The notes under the pieces: model-generated
Seen by the model: only the letters and a program-made list of their open reading frames with translations
What the model was told of the DNA's origin: nothing
Database searches by the model: none
In this document: positions 5,249 through 15,389 of the stretch, piece by piece
Layout: every line of letters starts with the position of its first letter
How positions within the stretch are numbered: position 1 is the first letter of the stretch
Source: Serratia sp. H1w
GTDB taxonomy: Bacteria; Pseudomonadota; Gammaproteobacteria; Enterobacterales; Enterobacteriaceae
Assembly (NCBI RefSeq): GCF_000633355.1
Contig: NZ_AYMQ01000056.1
Coordinates: 1-64,000 of the forward strand
Length of the DNA: 64,000 nucleotides
Direction of reading: 5' to 3'
Translations under genes and position numbers: made by a program

Positions 5249-6616
5249 TCAATTACACGCCACAACCTTGATCGCCAATCCGCCCTGTGATGTCTCGCGG
5301 TATTTGGAGTTCATGTCCTTGCCGGTCTCGTACATGGTCTCGATCACCTTATCCAGGCAAACGCGCGGCTCGCTGGTGCGTCGCAGTGCCATACGTGCGG
5401 CGTTGACTGCCTTCACGGCGGAGATCGCGTTACGTTCGATACAAGGCACCTGAACCTGCCCGGCCAGTGGATCACAGGTCAGCCCAAGATGGTGCTCCAT
5501 GGCAATCTCTGCGGCGATACAAACCTGTGCCGGGCTACCGCCCATCAACTCTGCCAAACCGGCCGCGGCCATTGAGCAAGCCACGCCGACTTCCCCTTGG
5601 CAGCCCACTTCGGCACCGGAAATTGAAGCATTCATCTTGTACAACGTGCCGATCACTCCAGAAGCCAGGAAATAGCGACTGTAGGAATTGGTGTTCACCG
5701 GGCGGATAAATTGGTCGTAATACGCCAGTACCGCCGGGATAATGCCGCAGGCCCCGTTGGTGGGGGCCGTCACCACCCGGCCACCCGCCGCATTCTCTTC
5801 GTTGACCGCAAACGCGAACATGTTGATCCAATCGACCACGTTCATCGGATCGGTATTGTTCTTGTCACCGGTGACCAGGATGCGACGCAATGCAGCGGCA
5901 CGGCGTTGTACCTTCATCGGGCCAGGTAGCAACCCCTCGGTATTCATACCGCGTTCGATACCGTCGCGCATCACCTGCCAGACATCGGCGAAGTGTGCTT
6001 CGATTTCAGCTTTGCTGCGCAGTGCCAGTTCGTTCTGCATCACCAAGCCGGAAAGCGAAAGTCCGGTATCTTTACAGTGTTGCTGCAAATCCAGCGCGGA
6101 GCGGTAAGGGTAGGGGACCGCTACACTATTGCTGGCCGATTGACCGAAGCTTGCTTCATCAACGATAAACCCACCGCCGATGGAATAATAAGTTTTGCTG
6201 TGCAGTAACCGATCGCCAGCATAGGCGCTGATCGACATGCCGTTTTCATGCAGCGGCAGGTTGGTACTGTGGAAGTTCATACCGCCGAGCGGTGGAAAAT
6301 CGACTTCGTGCACACCCTTTGCCAGCAACAGGCGGCCACGTTGTTCTACATCGCGAATAAAACCTGGGATGCTGTCGATGTCCACGTCATGAGGCAGATT
6401 ACCCGCCAGGCCCATAATAATCGCGATATCGGTATGGTGCCCTTTACCCGTCAATGACAGTGAGCCGTAGACGTCAACCGCTACTCGCGTTGTGTCGTGG
6501 AGCTGTCCGGCTGCCAGCAAATCATCGATAAACAGTTTACCGGCTTTCATCGGGCCGACGGTGTGGGAACTGGAAGGGCCGATGCCAATTTTGAAAATGT
6601 CGAAAACGCTGACCAT
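5249..6616 (-). CDS. sdaB: L-serine ammonia-lyase SdaB
   Basis: A 455-residue iron-sulfur L-serine deaminase converting serine to pyruvate and ammonia. The N-terminal beta domain starts VSVFDIFKIGIGPSSSHTVGPM and contains GSLSLTGKGHHTD; the alpha domain carries the substrate and cluster-binding TNGACGIIPAV, EVGCQGEVGVACSM and TCDPLAGQVQVPCIERN, whose cysteines bind the [4Fe-4S] cluster. Length equals E. coli SdaB. The gene follows sdaC on the same strand (135-nt gap with a stem-loop), so uptake and breakdown of serine form one unit; that context favours SdaB over SdaA. Confidence 0.93.
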   Translation of the reverse strand: MVSVFDIFKIGIGPSSSHTVGPMKAGKLFIDDLLAAGQLHDTTRVAVDVYGSLSLTGKGHHTDIAIIMGLAGNLPHDVDIDSIPGFIRDVEQRGRLLLAKGVHEVDFPPLGGMNFHSTNLPLHENGMSISAYAGDRLLHSKTYYSIGGGFIVDEASFGQSASNSVAVPYPYRSALDLQQHCKDTGLSLSGLVMQNELALRSKAEIEAHFADVWQVMRDGIERGMNTEGLLPGPMKVQRRAAALRRILVTGDKNNTDPMNVVDWINMFAFAVNEENAAGGRVVTAPTNGACGIIPAVLAYYDQFIRPVNTNSYSRYFLASGVIGTLYKMNASISGAEVGCQGEVGVACSMAAAGLAELMGGSPAQVCIAAEIAMEHHLGLTCDPLAGQVQVPCIERNAISAVKAVNAARMALRRTSEPRVCLDKVIETMYETGKDMNSKYRETSQGGLAIKVVACN

Positions 6617-6719
6617 AGTCTCGCTTCCTTCTTGAGGTTAATTCCCCTCTGCCTGCCGTTGTTATTGGCTGGTGGGTAATGCTTGGTTCGCGGCGGGGTG
6701 GGAGGGGGAGATTCGAGAT

Positions 6720-6743
6720 AGCCGGTGCCATAAGGCACCGGCT
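6720..6743 (-). terminator. Stem-loop between sdaC and sdaB
   Basis: A perfect 10-bp inverted repeat AGCCGGTGCC/GGCACCGGCT with a 4-nt loop lies 8 nt after the sdaC stop. No U-tract follows on the minus strand, so partial termination or mRNA processing between sdaC and sdaB is more likely than a full terminator. Confidence 0.55.
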
Positions 6744-6751
6744 GAGCGTGA

Positions 6752-8050
6752 TTAACCGAACAGGGTGTACAGGATGGCAGAGATGGCAATCAGCCCCATC
6801 ACGACCACAAATACGTTGCTGATGTGGCCGCTGTACTTGCGCATGGCAGGCACTTTACGGATAGCGTACATCGGCATCAGGAACAGCAGCATCGCGATGA
6901 TTGGGCCACCCAGGTTCTCGATCATGCCCAGAATGCTTGGGTTCAGCGTCGCGACGATCCAGGTGGTCACCAGCATGAAGATGGCGGTGATGCGGTTCAG
7001 TTTGTTGGTGGTGATGGTCTTGCCACGGCTTCTCATCGATTTGGCGATCATGCCGTTAAAGCCTTCACGAGCACCGAGGTAGTGGCCCAGGAAAGATTTG
7101 GTGATGGCGATAAAGGCGATCACTGGCGCGATGTACTCGATAACCGGGTTGTTAAAGTGGTTAGCCAGGTAAGACAGGATGGAGATGTTTTGCGCTTTAG
7201 CTTCGGCCAGATCCGCCGGGGACAGGCTCAGCACGCAGCTGAAAACAAAGAACATCACGGTCAGCACCATCATGATGTGTGCATAACCCAGGATGCGGGA
7301 ACATTTCTTCTCGGCGTCAACGCCGTATTCTTCACGTTTGGCTACCGCAAAGGCTGAGATGATCGGTGAGTGGTTGAAGGAGAACACCATTACCGGGATT
7401 GCCAGCCACAGGGTGATCACCAGGCCGTGGCCCAGGCTGCTGCCAGAACCGGCCAGCGAAACGTTTTCGAAGATGGCGCTGGTCCAGTTAGGGATCAGAT
7501 ATACCGCCAGCAGCATCAGTACCGCAACAAACGGGAATACCAGGATACTCATGGTCTTCACGATGGCCTGCTCACCGAAACGTACGATGCCCATCAGGCC
7601 CACGATCAGGATCAGCGACAGAATGGCGCGCGGTGGCGAGGTCATCCCCAGTTGGTGGGTGATGAAGCTGTCCACGGTGTTGGTGATCGCGACGCTATAG
7701 ACCAGCAGGATTGGGTAAATGGCGAAGAAGTAGAGCAGGGTGATCAGCTTACCAGCGCTGATGCCAAAGTGCTCTTCTACGACTTCGGTGATGTCTTCAC
7801 CAGGGTTTTTGCCAGACAGCACGAAACGGCACAGGCCACGGTGGGCAAAGAAGGTCATCGGGAAAGCGATGATGGCCATGATGATCAGCGGGATCAAACC
7901 ACCGATACCGGCGTTGATTGGCAAGAACAAGACGCCAGCGCCGATGGCGGTGCCGTAGAGGCCCAACATCCACATGGTGTCTGATTTACGCCAGGCCGTG
8001 CTGGAACCTGAGGCTGCAGAGGCGATAGTGCCGGTCTGTGTAGTGTCCAT
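6752..8050 (-). CDS. sdaC: Serine/proton symporter SdaC
   Basis: A 432-residue inner-membrane transporter of the HAAAP family that imports L-serine with protons. The N-terminus [10 protein letters not shown], then [29 protein letters not shown], matches E. coli SdaC, and about eleven hydrophobic segments follow. I set the start at 8050 because the homologous N-terminus begins there; the in-frame ATG 21 nt upstream adds MFTSEIF. It heads the sdaC-sdaB unit. A 967-nt upstream region suggests elaborate control; E. coli sdaC responds to CRP and Lrp. Confidence 0.94.
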
Positions 8051-11698: not shown

Positions 11699-12304
11699 TT
11701 ACTCCTTTACCCAACCCTTGCGGATCGGGAAGGCGAACAGGAAATGGTACAGGCGCGTCAAACGTTGGGCGATGGCATCGCCAAACAGGTTCCATACCAA
11801 TTGGGCAAACAGGCAACCCACGCAGCCCAGCAGGAAACCGCCAACCATATCCAGCGGCCAGTGCACGCCGAGGAATACGCGCGACCAGGCGATGGCAACT
11901 GCTACGGCCATTAGCAAAACACCGGACCAGGCACGATGCCAACACAAGAAGGCCAGGGCGAAGGTGAAGATGGCTGTGCCATGATCGCTGGGGAAAGAGC
12001 TGTCTGGAGCATGCGCCAGGAAGGTATAGCCGATCCCGGCGACAAACGGGCGCTCATGGGGCAACAACGCACCGATAGCGGCCGCGGCGCTCATGGCAAA
12101 TAACAGAGCAATAGTCGTTTTGGCTACCACTTCTCGCTGTGCTGTCAGTTGGCTATGCGCCCCCCAGAGCCACAGGCCGACAATCAGCAGCGGGATAATG
12201 GCGATCAGATCCCGCGCGATGAAAGTGGCAAGATCGATCAACCATTCCGGGCTGGCCGGAGTCGCATTGATCCAGGCGAAAAGAAGATAGTTCAACTGCT
12301 CCAT
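11699..12304 (-). CDS. ybjG: Undecaprenyl-diphosphatase YbjG
   Basis: A 201-residue PAP2-superfamily inner-membrane phosphatase that recycles undecaprenyl diphosphate, the lipid carrier for peptidoglycan and O-antigen. PAP2 motifs are visible: KxxxxxxRP-like HERPF, SFPSDHG (catalytic His) and SRVFLGVHWPLDM. Five or six hydrophobic helices surround them, and the C-terminus IRKGWVKE matches E. coli YbjG (IRKGWVRD). In E. coli ybjG also neighbours deoR. The gene starts 6 nt after the stop of another PAP2 gene on the same strand, so the two are probably co-transcribed. Confidence 0.93.
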   Translation of the reverse strand: MEQLNYLLFAWINATPASPEWLIDLATFIARDLIAIIPLLIVGLWLWGAHSQLTAQREVVAKTTIALLFAMSAAAAIGALLPHERPFVAGIGYTFLAHAPDSSFPSDHGTAIFTFALAFLCWHRAWSGVLLMAVAVAIAWSRVFLGVHWPLDMVGGFLLGCVGCLFAQLVWNLFGDAIAQRLTRLYHFLFAFPIRKGWVKE

Positions 12305-12310
12305 TAAGTA

Positions 12311-13069
12311 TTACCTCGTCTTACGGCGGATATAGCCGCTGATACACCAATAAACAGCCAACTGGCTGAACCAGACCCACCACCCGGCCCACAGGTTATG
12401 GGAAAGAAAATGCGCGCCCCGCATGATCTGGCCAAAGCCCATCAGCATGCCAAGCGTGATACCGCCGAACCAACACCAGTAAGCCAGGCGTGGGCGTTGC
12501 GGATAAAACAGGAAGAACAACGCCATCACGGCAAAGCCACTGGAAGCATGGCCACCGGGGAAACAACGGCCAGGCCCCGGAAACGCGGGTGTGGTGCCAA
12601 ACAGTGGGAACGACATCGCCTTGCCACCGTACTCCAGCAGATCCCAAGGGCAGGAATGTGCGCTGGTGGCTTTCAGGATCCCCACCACTAATGGCCCAAT
12701 GCCGATCAACAGCATGGTGACTATCAGCCGTGGATTACGGCGATAAATTCCCCAAAACAGCGCCAACACCGCCCCGGTAATCACTGAAATCTTTAACAGA
12801 CGATGGTTAATCAGATCCAGCCAGTAGTTGTTCTGCCAAGGGAAGCGCTGGTTGGCGGCGTCATACCAATAATTGCTGACTGCCCAATCCAACTGTTCAT
12901 TGCGTGACAGCCAGATAAACAGCAAACCCGTCACCAACAACCCAAAGGCTTGCCAACGGTAAAAGGATGTAGGCAAGGAGTAAAGGGAGGTAGTCTTAAT
13001 TTGGCTTACCGTTGAGGATTGATTTAATGAAGATTGTTTGGCGTTTGACGAGTTCACACGGAGGCTCAT
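12311..13069 (-). CDS. PAP2-family membrane phosphatase, PmrA-box upstream
   Basis: A 252-residue PAP2 enzyme with about six membrane segments. Motifs: KATSAHSCPWDL (phosphate-binding Lys), CFPGGHASSGF (catalytic His) and MRGAHFLSHNLWAGWW. It differs clearly from YbjG in sequence and in having a 40-residue polar N-terminus. Substrate is unknown; related proteins act on phosphatidylglycerophosphate, lipid A phosphates or undecaprenyl diphosphate. A PmrA-type box 37 nt upstream suggests induction with polymyxin-resistance genes, which would fit a lipid A or C55-PP role. It is probably the first gene of a two-gene unit with ybjG. Function beyond PAP2 is inference. Confidence 0.85.
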   Translation of the reverse strand: MSLRVNSSNAKQSSLNQSSTVSQIKTTSLYSLPTSFYRWQAFGLLVTGLLFIWLSRNEQLDWAVSNYWYDAANQRFPWQNNYWLDLINHRLLKISVITGAVLALFWGIYRRNPRLIVTMLLIGIGPLVVGILKATSAHSCPWDLLEYGGKAMSFPLFGTTPAFPGPGRCFPGGHASSGFAVMALFFLFYPQRPRLAYWCWFGGITLGMLMGFGQIMRGAHFLSHNLWAGWWVWFSQLAVYWCISGYIRRKTR

Positions 13070-13238: not shown

Positions 13239-13751
13239 ATGAACAAGCTTTCTATGGTAGTGACCAGCCTGCTGATGGCTGCGTCCGTCAGCGCTTTTGC
13301 CGCCACCACCGCCGAAAATGACGATCTCAATATGCAGCCGTTGGAGAAGGTCGCGCCGTTCCCGAAAGCGGAACCGGGGATGAGCCGGCAGGTCATTTAT
13401 TTGCCCAAGCAGGAAAATGAAGAGAACTTTAAGGTTGAGCTGCTGATTGGCCAAACGTTGGAAGTGGATTGCAACCGCCACATGATGGGGGGCAACCTGG
13501 AGAGCAAAACGCTGGCCGGTTGGGGTTACGACTACTTTGTGCTGGCGAAGCTCTCGGCTCCGGCCTCTACCATGATGGCTTGCCCGGATAATACCAAGCG
13601 TCAGGAGTTTGTGGCTGCTCATCTGGGAGATGCCGCGATGCAGCGCTATAACAGCCGCCTGCCGATCGTCGTGTATGTGCCGAAGGATGTAGAGGTGCGC
13701 TACCGCATCTGGTCAGCCAGTGAAAATACCGGCCGTGCGGTAATTAAATAA
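13239..13751 (+). CDS. eco: Ecotin, periplasmic serine protease inhibitor
   Basis: A 170-residue ecotin with a signal peptide (cleavage after SAFA, about residue 21). Ecotin is a homodimeric periplasmic inhibitor of trypsin-fold proteases, including neutrophil elastase and blood proteases. The family blocks [58 protein letters not shown] and the reactive loop STMMACPD, with Met-Met at the P1-P1' positions, are all present, as are the two cysteines of the disulfide. Length fits the family. ATG 13239 follows TAAGGATAAAAA. It stands alone, with its own upstream region shared with the PAP2 gene. Confidence 0.95.
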
Positions 13752-13763
13752 TCGCATTCTAAT

Positions 13764-13811
13764 GTAGGGGCGCCGCATGCTGCGCCCGTTTAGCCGCATG
13801 CTACGCCCGCT
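13764..13811. repeat. GCCGCATGCTGCGC palindromic repeat (family B), two tandem units
   Basis: GTAGGGGCGCCGCATGCTGC continues into GCCC, then a second unit GCCGCATGCTACGCCCGC. Similar units occur at 37912, 55431 and 60504, and a related one at 26704. It fills the convergent gap between eco and the LpxA-like gene. Confidence 0.65.
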
Positions 13812-13818
13812 TACCTAT

Positions 13819-14610
13819 CTAGCGAATAATGCCGCGCGCCGAGCGTGAGAAGAAAGAGTTAAACCACTGCAGCAGCGGATAGGTTTCGCTCAAGCGTTGC
13901 GCCTCCTGTTTCACTTCATCGATCGCCAGCGCATTGTGGTACAACATGTTATACAGTGCCAGGATCACCTGCTGTTGCTGGCTATCCAACGATTGGAAGG
14001 CTACCGCTGACTCGTTGACCCCGATGGGGGCCGCATGGTTGCCACTGGCGCGGACAAACGGTGGAACATCCTGCACGACCCCGGATTGATTGGCGATGTG
14101 TGCATGGGCACCCAGCAGACAAAACTGATGGATGGCGCACATAAACCCAATCTGCACAAAATCAGCCAGTTCAACATGCCCGGCCAACCCCGAGTTATCA
14201 CCGATCACGGTGGTATTGCCGACAATGCAATCATGACCAATATGGACGTTGTTTAAGAACAGGTTGTCATTGCCAATGGTGGTTCGGCGATATCCTTGCA
14301 CGGTACCGCGATGAATGGTCGCATTTTTGCCGATCCGATTCCTGTCGCCAATCACCACGTCGGTGGCTTCACCGGCATATTTCAAATCCTGATTCACTTC
14401 ACCGATGGTGGAAAACTGCCCGATAACGTTATCGCGGCCAATACGGGTGAGGCCGTTGATGCTTACGTGGGAAGCTATGACCGTATCGTCACCGATCTCG
14501 ACGTCGGCTGCGATGATGCAAAAGGGGCCAATGCTGACGCGCGCACCGATAATCGCCCCCGGTTCGATCAAGCTGTTGCTTGCGACCCGGGCAGAGGGAG
14601 AGATTGACAT
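13819..14610 (-). CDS. LpxA-like acyl-ACP--UDP-GlcNAc O-acyltransferase paralogue
   Basis: A 263-residue left-handed beta-helix acyltransferase, equal in length to E. coli LpxA (262) and collinear with it (GEVNQDLKYAGE, ATIHRGTVQG, VHIGHDCIVGN, GVVQDVPPFV, RSARGIIR). The catalytic and structural histidines corresponding to E. coli His122, His125, His144 and His160 are all kept. The chain-length ruler Gly173 is Asn174 here, and the KRRGFSR segment (Arg204 region) is replaced by AFQSLDS. It stands alone next to eco, not between fabZ and lpxB, so it is probably a second, specialised enzyme with altered acyl or nucleotide specificity. Start 14610 has AGGA 8 nt upstream; a longer frame adds 17 residues. 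Confidence 0.85.
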   Translation of the reverse strand: MSISPSARVASNSLIEPGAIIGARVSIGPFCIIAADVEIGDDTVIASHVSINGLTRIGRDNVIGQFSTIGEVNQDLKYAGEATDVVIGDRNRIGKNATIHRGTVQGYRRTTIGNDNLFLNNVHIGHDCIVGNTTVIGDNSGLAGHVELADFVQIGFMCAIHQFCLLGAHAHIANQSGVVQDVPPFVRASGNHAAPIGVNESAVAFQSLDSQQQQVILALYNMLYHNALAIDEVKQEAQRLSETYPLLQWFNSFFSRSARGIIR

Positions 14611-14963
14611 TGCATTATCCTGGAGATGGCGCGTGGCGTTGCCGACATCGGGCCCAATCATGGGTAAATGACTAAGCCGAAGTGTGGATTAATCAGAGAA
14701 TAAACGTCGAATGGGAGGGGGGTAGGATTGGGCCATTGAAGGCCACTGATTGTTCTTATCGACAAGGCGAGTATAAGGAATGCTCAGGCGCAGCACGCTA
14801 TCTTATATTTTATTTATTTTCTGAACCTTTCCGTAATGACGGATGAGGCACGGATTATGGTCGCAGCACGTCCAGCTAGCAGGCAACAACTCTCACGCTA
14901 GGCTAGAATTAATAGGTAGATGATGGTCAGGCTGGGTATTAGGCAATACGGAGGGCTGACAAC
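14611..14963. other. Intergenic region between LpxA-like gene and usp gene
   Basis: 353 nt, divergent. It should contain both promoters; an AT-rich tract at about 14800-14825 is the only striking feature. I see no gene and no clear operator. Confidence 0.5.
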
Positions 14964-15389
14964 ATGACTTATCAACATATCGTTATCGCTACCGATCTGA
15001 GTGAAGATGCCGAATTGGTGGTGCGAAAGGGCTCTGAATTGGCTAGTTCGCTAAACGCCAAGTTGTCGCTGATTTATATCGATGAACAAGCCAGTCACTA
15101 CAGCGAATTTGGTAGTGGCGAGTTCAATTATACCGATAAGACCTTCTCCGAACGGGTGAGGAATATGCTTAACGCCATTCAGCAGCAGACGGAGTACCCC
15201 ATCAGTGAAGTGATCATTGGCCGTGGCGAACTCAGCGAAGCACTGAATAATGCTATCCATGAAAAGGGGATTGATTTGGTGATTTTCGGTCACCACTACG
15301 ATATGTGGAGCCGTTTGGTGTCCAGCACGCGACGCACGATCAACCACATTGCGGTGGATATGCTGGTGGTGCCGCTGGTGAAAAGCTGA
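14964..15389 (+). CDS. UspA-family universal stress protein
   Basis: A 141-residue single Usp domain beginning with the standard beta strand YQHIVIATDLSEDAELVVRKG. The C-terminal part GHHYDMWSRLVSSTRRTI..VDMLVVPL is like E. coli UspA/UspC (GHHQDFWSKLMSS), which lack the G-x2-G-x9-G-S/T ATP motif, so a non-ATP-binding Usp is likely. These cytoplasmic dimers accumulate under starvation and oxidative stress. It is a lone gene, preceded by GGAGGGCTGACAAC. Which of the E. coli Usp proteins it corresponds to cannot be settled by eye. Confidence 0.88.
   Translation: MTYQHIVIATDLSEDAELVVRKGSELASSLNAKLSLIYIDEQASHYSEFGSGEFNYTDKTFSERVRNMLNAIQQQTEYPISEVIIGRGELSEALNNAIHEKGIDLVIFGHHYDMWSRLVSSTRRTINHIAVDMLVVPLVKS

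Follow-up and report, generated by a model that had tools for sequence, protein, structure and literature searches.

The protein encoded at positions 13819-14610 on the minus strand of the 64,000-nucleotide stretch of DNA analysed here (the window) is a second LpxA of its genome, present beside a housekeeping copy. Together with its relatives it forms an old clade of LpxA paralogues, patchily spread over the Enterobacterales, whose members are found as a lone gene at many sites. From the residues that are kept and changed in this clade, it is proposed with moderate confidence that the orphan protein may be a portable O-acyltransferase that is active, uses a changed acyl donor and acts on UDP-GlcNAc or a close acceptor, giving a product other than standard lipid A.

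The open reading frame was confirmed as a real gene of 263 codons, its product (263 aa) matching the LpxA models TIGR01852 (258.6 bits, cut-off 231) and NF003657 (281 bits, cut-off 226) over the full length; this cut-off test was run on the window protein alone. Hexapeptide repeats (PF00132) were found by sequence, and the phmmer alignment with Escherichia coli LpxA (1lxa) was gap-free at 53.6% identity, each position of the window protein being that of E. coli plus one. The NeuD/PglB/VioB sugar acetyltransferases belong to the same fold class as LpxA, but their model TIGR03570 gave only a weak match of 73.4 bits, under the cut-off of 160.8, and the orphan is plainly LpxA-derived. The start codon is the ATG at 14610, from which 7 nt separate an AGGA (14618-14621, minus strand), the likely ribosome-binding site. 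An in-frame ATG upstream, at 14661, is a less likely start, because 18 of the 24 upstream regions that were aligned have CAGGA directly before the position of ATG 14610.

The host genome (6.13 Mb in 240 contigs) contains another lpxA at C57:87047-87829, inside an lpxD-fabZ-lpxA-lpxB cluster, and the protein of this copy is 53.2% identical to the orphan and 79.8% identical to E. coli LpxA. The orphan gene, examined for cluster membership, stands outside any such cluster. The original prediction of a second LpxA away from fabZ-lpxA-lpxB was thus confirmed. It would have fallen with a genome lacking another lpxA or with a glycine at the ruler position, and neither was found, since the normal lpxA exists on contig C57 and the ruler residue is asparagine.

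Residues were counted over distinct sequences, 55 orphan rows being reduced to 41 by merging identical ones, and are given in E. coli numbering. The 58 controls consisted of 23 Enterobacterales LpxAs, 18 order-level matches, which include two proteins of the window's own family, and 17 class-level matches from 15 genomes, two of which contributed two each. Ten catalytic and sugar-site residues (Gln73, Asp74, Lys76, Arg100, His122, His125, Asp126, His144, His160 and Gln161) are kept in 41/41 orphans, compared with 23/23 Enterobacterales, 17/18 order-level and 9/17 class-level controls. The phmmer alignment with 1lxa likewise bore out the earlier statement that His122, 125, 144 and 160 are all retained in the window protein.

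The acyl groove showed a different picture. Met, Phe or Tyr occupies position 170 in 58/58 controls and in 0/41 orphans, which have Arg in 15 and Lys in 10 cases. Position 155 is Gly or Ala in 57/58 controls (23/23, 18/18 and 16/17) and in 9/41 orphans, these nine being Ala, with Phe in 15 and Ser in 6; the blockade is weaker in Rahnella-like members, which have Ala or Ser here. Asn137 is present in 56/58 controls and in 4/41 orphans, 26 of which carry Asp, and in the orphans Ile152 is replaced by Gln (25) or Arg (6), Thr157 by Cys (37) and Cys174 by Gln (26). The window protein itself, with Phe156, His171 and Asn174 at E. coli positions 155, 170 and 173, lacks the hydrophobic-groove pair Gly/Ala155 and Met/Phe/Tyr170. 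The exchange of Gly173 for Asn174, first proposed from an alignment by eye, was upheld by the gap-free alignment. It is real, but as a sign of specificity the ruler residue alone is weak evidence, since distant LpxAs also vary at 173: the 17 class-level matches have Met in 6, Gly in 3 and Arg in 2, with six further states, Asn and a gap among them, seen in one match apiece. In the orphans this position is Asp in 27/41, the Asn of the window protein being found in 1/41.

On the side of the protein that would receive the donor, Arg204 is present in 56/58 controls (23/23, 17/18 and 16/17) and in 2/41 orphans, 35 of which, among them the window protein, have Phe; Arg205 is kept in 10/17 class-level matches. 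The residues of the Arg204 segment had been described as lost; they are indeed changed, LKRRGFS to VAFQSLD, but by substitution without a gap. The mean net charge of residues 196-232 is -2.7 in the orphans as against +3.3 in 51 distinct non-orphan LpxAs, and nine chosen positions carry basic residues in 9% of cases in the orphans and in 99%, 80% and 57% in the controls. Charged residues (D/E/K/R) at 152/155/170/173 amount to 40% in the orphans; the control sets have 0%, 0% and 4%. In the groove, the orphans are 22% and the class-level set 38% identical to E. coli, the overall identities being 49% and 46%, respectively. Because the groove and basic positions were picked from papers and partly from the alignment itself, these percentages describe rather than test the difference, and the single-position counts are fairer. 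Some donor-side contacts remain, since Arg258 is kept in 41/41 and Asn198 in 34/41 orphans.

According to the literature, G173 and M169 form the ruler, and H160, R258, Q161, R204, R205 and N198 are suggested to meet ACP (PMC6408518); G173 and R204 are essential (PMC4322802); acyl-pocket residues have been described for Pseudomonas aeruginosa LpxA (PMC6820557); and a modelled LpxA-AcpP complex, whose structure is unsolved, has a hydrophobic patch for the lipid (PMC10863985). The basic face of LpxA may dock ACP. Loss of most of these basic positions, suited to an acidic ACP, across the clade weakens the case for an acyl-ACP donor, which had been assumed in the original prediction. The AlphaFold model of the orphan protein, built with 32 sequences, was too poor to measure the groove (pLDDT 75, pTM 0.66). 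Compared by VIA-align for the left-handed beta-helix fold, it had LpxA chains as the leading matches (Z 19.6 and 18.3), but with an rmsd of about 12 Å at 42-54% identity, which is read as a wrongly wound helix in the model.

A profile made from eight orphan-type proteins gave 31 matches of at least 363 bits in 30 of the 392 family genomes sampled; the remaining matches listed reached at most 349 bits, leaving a gap below 363. All 30 carrier genomes have at least one further LpxA match below this gap, read as the canonical copy, and none of the 31 clade matches contains a stop codon. Within the genus of the window's genome the orphan gene occurs in 3/7 genomes. Carriers among the best 80 loci include Serratia oryzae, Edaphovirga, Buttiauxella, Citrobacter, Dryocola, Budvicia, Cedecea, Ewingella, Lelliottia, Hafnia psychrotolerans, Rahnella and Rouxiella, some of these being genera reputed to be cold-tolerant. 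In 369 genomes sampled from the class, a match at E 1e-85 or better was obtained in the own genome and in G066 only, the latter scoring 308 bits, less than the weakest clade member (363).

The 41 distinct orphans formed one clade (SH-aLRT 99), with 42 canonical proteins outside it (support 99), in a quick maximum-likelihood tree, which comprised 87 rows and was midpoint-rooted and computed without bootstrap. A phylogeny had been proposed earlier for the Yersiniaceae; the paralogue clade extends beyond them, patchily over the Enterobacterales. The branch bearing on whether the orphan/canonical split predates the order had a support of 93 and was not starred. Four other paralogues, denoted X (genomes G046, G220, G367 and G054:C34; loci L046 7389-8192(-), L047 7083-7871(-), L178 and L179), were separated together with the orphans from the canonical rows with support 99, G054:C34 being placed weakly within this joint branch. 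Like the orphans, they are second LpxAs in genomes of the same family and are devoid of Arg204/205; unlike them, they have other residues at 155/170/173 and, in G046 and G220, a gap at 203-205, and those of G046 and G054:C34 occupy other sites than the orphans do. Two genomes of other gammaproteobacterial families, G444 (L249, L264) and G448 (L258, L265), also gave two LpxA matches each over the cut-off, the weaker copies differing at positions of the catalytic set.

In the window the orphan gene stands between ecotin (eco, 13239-13751; NF002987, 240 bits, cut-off 162) and a universal-stress-protein-like (usp-like) gene (14964-15389; best model 117 bits, cut-off 202), and its GC content is unremarkable. 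The block 13788-14882 between these neighbours has no counterpart in G002, of the same genus, which contains at this place a ycaC-like fragment, paired by eye with the ycaC-like gene of G004 (226 bits, cut-off 310). Between eco and the orphan gene there is a GC-rich palindromic repeat (13768-13808), and similar short sequences recur dozens of times elsewhere in the own genome and in G004. Further away, the gene of a PAP2-family protein at 12311-13069(-), which matches a lipid A phosphatase model weakly (59.5 bits, cut-off 275), is adjoined by an undecaprenyl-diphosphate phosphatase gene at 11699-12304.

The eco neighbourhood, to which attention had been drawn, is correct for the window but common to only 2/26 loci. 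The neighbours were read at 26 of 27 loci, L060 having given no ORF and being left out, and the orphan gene was found alone in nine contexts. In 7/26 loci it follows a GH88-family glycosidase gene and precedes a gene which we take to be argS. In 10/26 it is divergent from an EptA/MCR-3-like gene, one further locus representing the other flank of the same site; these ten loci belong to Rahnella, Ewingella, Hafnia, Rouxiella and one further Enterobacterales genome. The call of a phosphoethanolamine-lipid A transferase related to EptA/MCR-3 was made by profile search on L069 only (5950-7674, minus strand; below the MCR cut-offs and above the general family cut-off), and the nine other loci were joined to it by clustering. 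The remaining six contexts are single sites, one of which adjoins an IS240-type transposase. Budvicia aquatica and Lelliottia sp. WAP21 each have two orphan copies at different sites (L058, L066 and L067, L083, respectively).

Plasmid records gave 55 matches and phage records 14, all below 60% identity, the best being 53.6%, annotated lpxA, among the 20 plasmid matches listed and 51.7% among the five phage matches listed. A megablast comparison of the Citrobacter copy with E. coli genomes gave no match. Ends of a mobile element were not found, because the sequence downstream, compared by eye, is not common to different sites.

Upstream of the gene a putative promoter is, by contrast with the differing flanks, common to unrelated sites, and includes a box, a -10 element and a dyad in the leader. 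In the window the box GTTCAGAAAATAAATAAAATATA (14804-14826, minus strand) lies near -40 to -60 from the inferred start, the position of an UP-element or an activator, and is followed after 28 nt by the -10-like TATACT (14770-14775, minus strand). The 23-bp box, GTTCANAAAATAAANAAAATATA, was found with at most two mismatches in 23 of the 41 distinct upstream regions (15 exact), each time 27-28 nt before a TATNCT, and was absent at that level from 18/41, among them those of Buttiauxella, Citrobacter, Budvicia, Lelliottia and Edaphovirga. A 26-base form of the box, allowed up to three mismatches, has a single occurrence in the own genome, before the orphan gene, and the reversed control has none. 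Across the 392 genomes, 12/12 exact matches stand just upstream of a clade member; of six one-mismatch matches four do so, the others being located in G419 and in a 0.5-Mb genome. The G419 match (C7:58475-58497) is on a different contig from that genome's orphan gene; the latter begins close to where a short contig ends, and either an assembly break or an insertion may have parted the two. Two-mismatch matches are many; those of G393 and G159 stand just upstream of a clade member, and the others look like chance, since the reversed control also matches at this level.

The leader contains an AT-rich inverted repeat, GATTAATCC...GGCTTAGTC (14670-14694, minus strand), a candidate operator or RNA hairpin, with a similar dyad upstream of several relatives elsewhere. 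An Rfam search of the leader gave nothing above the gathering score, the one match having 18.1 bits against 50 and lying on the opposite strand. As the generic sigma-70 scan returned one site, on the plus strand, and did not flag the proposed promoter, the -10 assignment is based on conservation. Compared by eye, the box did not fit those of PhoP, PmrA, CRP or Fur. Judging from this conservation, the promoter accompanies the orphan gene in part of the clade.

Substitution ratios indicate that the orphan gene is under purifying selection: for the own genome against G004, the nearest pair, the orphan had a dN/dS of 0.055 and the housekeeping lpxA one of 0.036, other orphan pairs reaching up to 0.17 among those listed. 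That the clade would represent a decaying, functionless duplicate is hardly credible. The orphan does evolve faster than the housekeeping gene, the proteins of the own genome and G004 being 93% and 98% identical, respectively, but the low dN/dS contradicts decay, as do the lack of stops in the 31 clade matches, the ten invariant active-site residues and the conserved box in 23/41 upstream regions.

The earlier suggestion of a second acyltransferase, probably catalytic and of altered specificity, is strengthened by the family data far beyond a single ruler residue. The following mechanism could be drawn from them. The LpxA catalytic and amino-sugar-site residues are retained, and in an active trimer His125 would still deprotonate a hydroxyl on the sugar of UDP-GlcNAc or of a closely related nucleotide sugar. 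The acyl groove is rebuilt: polar or bulky residues have come in (Gln for I152, mostly bulky residues for G155, Arg/Lys for M170, Asp for N137 and Gln for C174), which may suit a short or polar acyl group. With Arg204/Arg205 and most basic positions of the C-terminal domain lost, the donor would probably differ from the usual 3-hydroxymyristoyl-ACP and might be CoA or another carrier. The product may then be an O-acylated nucleotide sugar for an envelope glycan or glycolipid; that it is probably other than ordinary lipid A follows from the rebuilding of the fatty-acid pocket and of the likely carrier-docking face, and from the occurrence of the copies alone at many sites. As a counterpoint to a changed donor, the window protein still passes the curated LpxA cut-offs.

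The main rival is an enzyme of condition-specific lipid A, as the original prediction had suggested, which would use 3-hydroxyacyl-ACP, perhaps shorter, and alter the 3/3' acyl chains when its promoter is active. This is rather doubtful, although several features speak for it: the own conserved promoter of many members, the divergent EptA/MCR-3-like gene at 10/26 loci and the presence of cold-tolerant genera among the carriers. In E. coli the chain becomes shorter when position 173 carries a larger residue (G173M, PMC6408518), and a role in the cold has been raised for the pair of LpxA homologues in Psychrobacter cryohalolentis (PMC4557000). Against it, Arg/Lys170, Gln152 and Gln174 would make the groove polar and not merely shorter, position 170 is Met/Phe/Tyr in 58/58 controls, and the P. 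aeruginosa LpxA, which is specific for C10, keeps Gly151, the inferred equivalent of 155 (PMC6820557). The loss of Arg204 and of most of the basic positions also speaks against a role in condition-specific lipid A.

The active sites of LpxA are clefts between neighbouring subunits, and the orphan could also act as a subunit of mixed trimers, tuning or damping the activity of the housekeeping enzyme. Its retained catalytic residues and the further LpxA match in 30/30 carriers agree with such a role, which is nevertheless unlikely: mixed trimers of the Segatella copri LpxAs were modelled as less favourable (PMC12643348). Moreover, at 53% identity to the host LpxA, the interface would need to fit many hosts. 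Target-bypass genes often look lone and patchily spread, as this gene does, and a spare or inhibitor-resistant LpxA replacing a blocked housekeeping enzyme has to be considered; it is decidedly improbable, since a bypass needs the normal product while Arg204 and the hydrophobic groove are lost, and the further LpxA match is present in all 30 carriers.

Compared with housekeeping LpxA (E. coli 1lxa/2jf2 and the own C57 copy), the orphan has the same length, a gap-free alignment at 53-54% identity and the same catalytic and amino-sugar residues. It differs in its polar groove, its non-Gly ruler, the loss of Arg204/205 and of most C-terminal basic positions, the lack of fabZ, lpxB or lpxD neighbours, its optional presence and its own promoter. 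Second LpxAs are also known in Legionella. Second LpxA homologues have been reported beside a normal copy in P. cryohalolentis (PMC4557000), S. copri (PMC12643348) and Geobacter sulfurreducens (PMC3087551), the two LpxAs of S. copri keeping the catalytic residues at about 45% identity to each other; the accessible portions of these papers describe them without a groove residue analysis or a mobile clade. Literature searches, whose scope excluded most subscription journals, gave no paper on this clade among the matches listed.

It is tempting to speculate, as a tentative possibility, that the clade represents a widespread mobile LpxA-derived enzyme of the Enterobacterales that uses a non-ACP donor to make a nucleotide sugar, unknown until now, with a short or polar acyl group, on a branch off UDP-GlcNAc outside lipid A and with a promoter box unique in the genome. 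LpxA, the textbook case of a hydrocarbon ruler, is also an essential target for drugs. The two curated "equivalog" models would name the orphan lpxA, which can lead metabolic models, calls of essentiality and surveys of drug targets astray. A natural family with a kept catalytic site and a rebuilt donor side separates the donor-serving from the acceptor-serving parts of LpxA, and the orphan family may reveal a new O-acylated nucleotide sugar.
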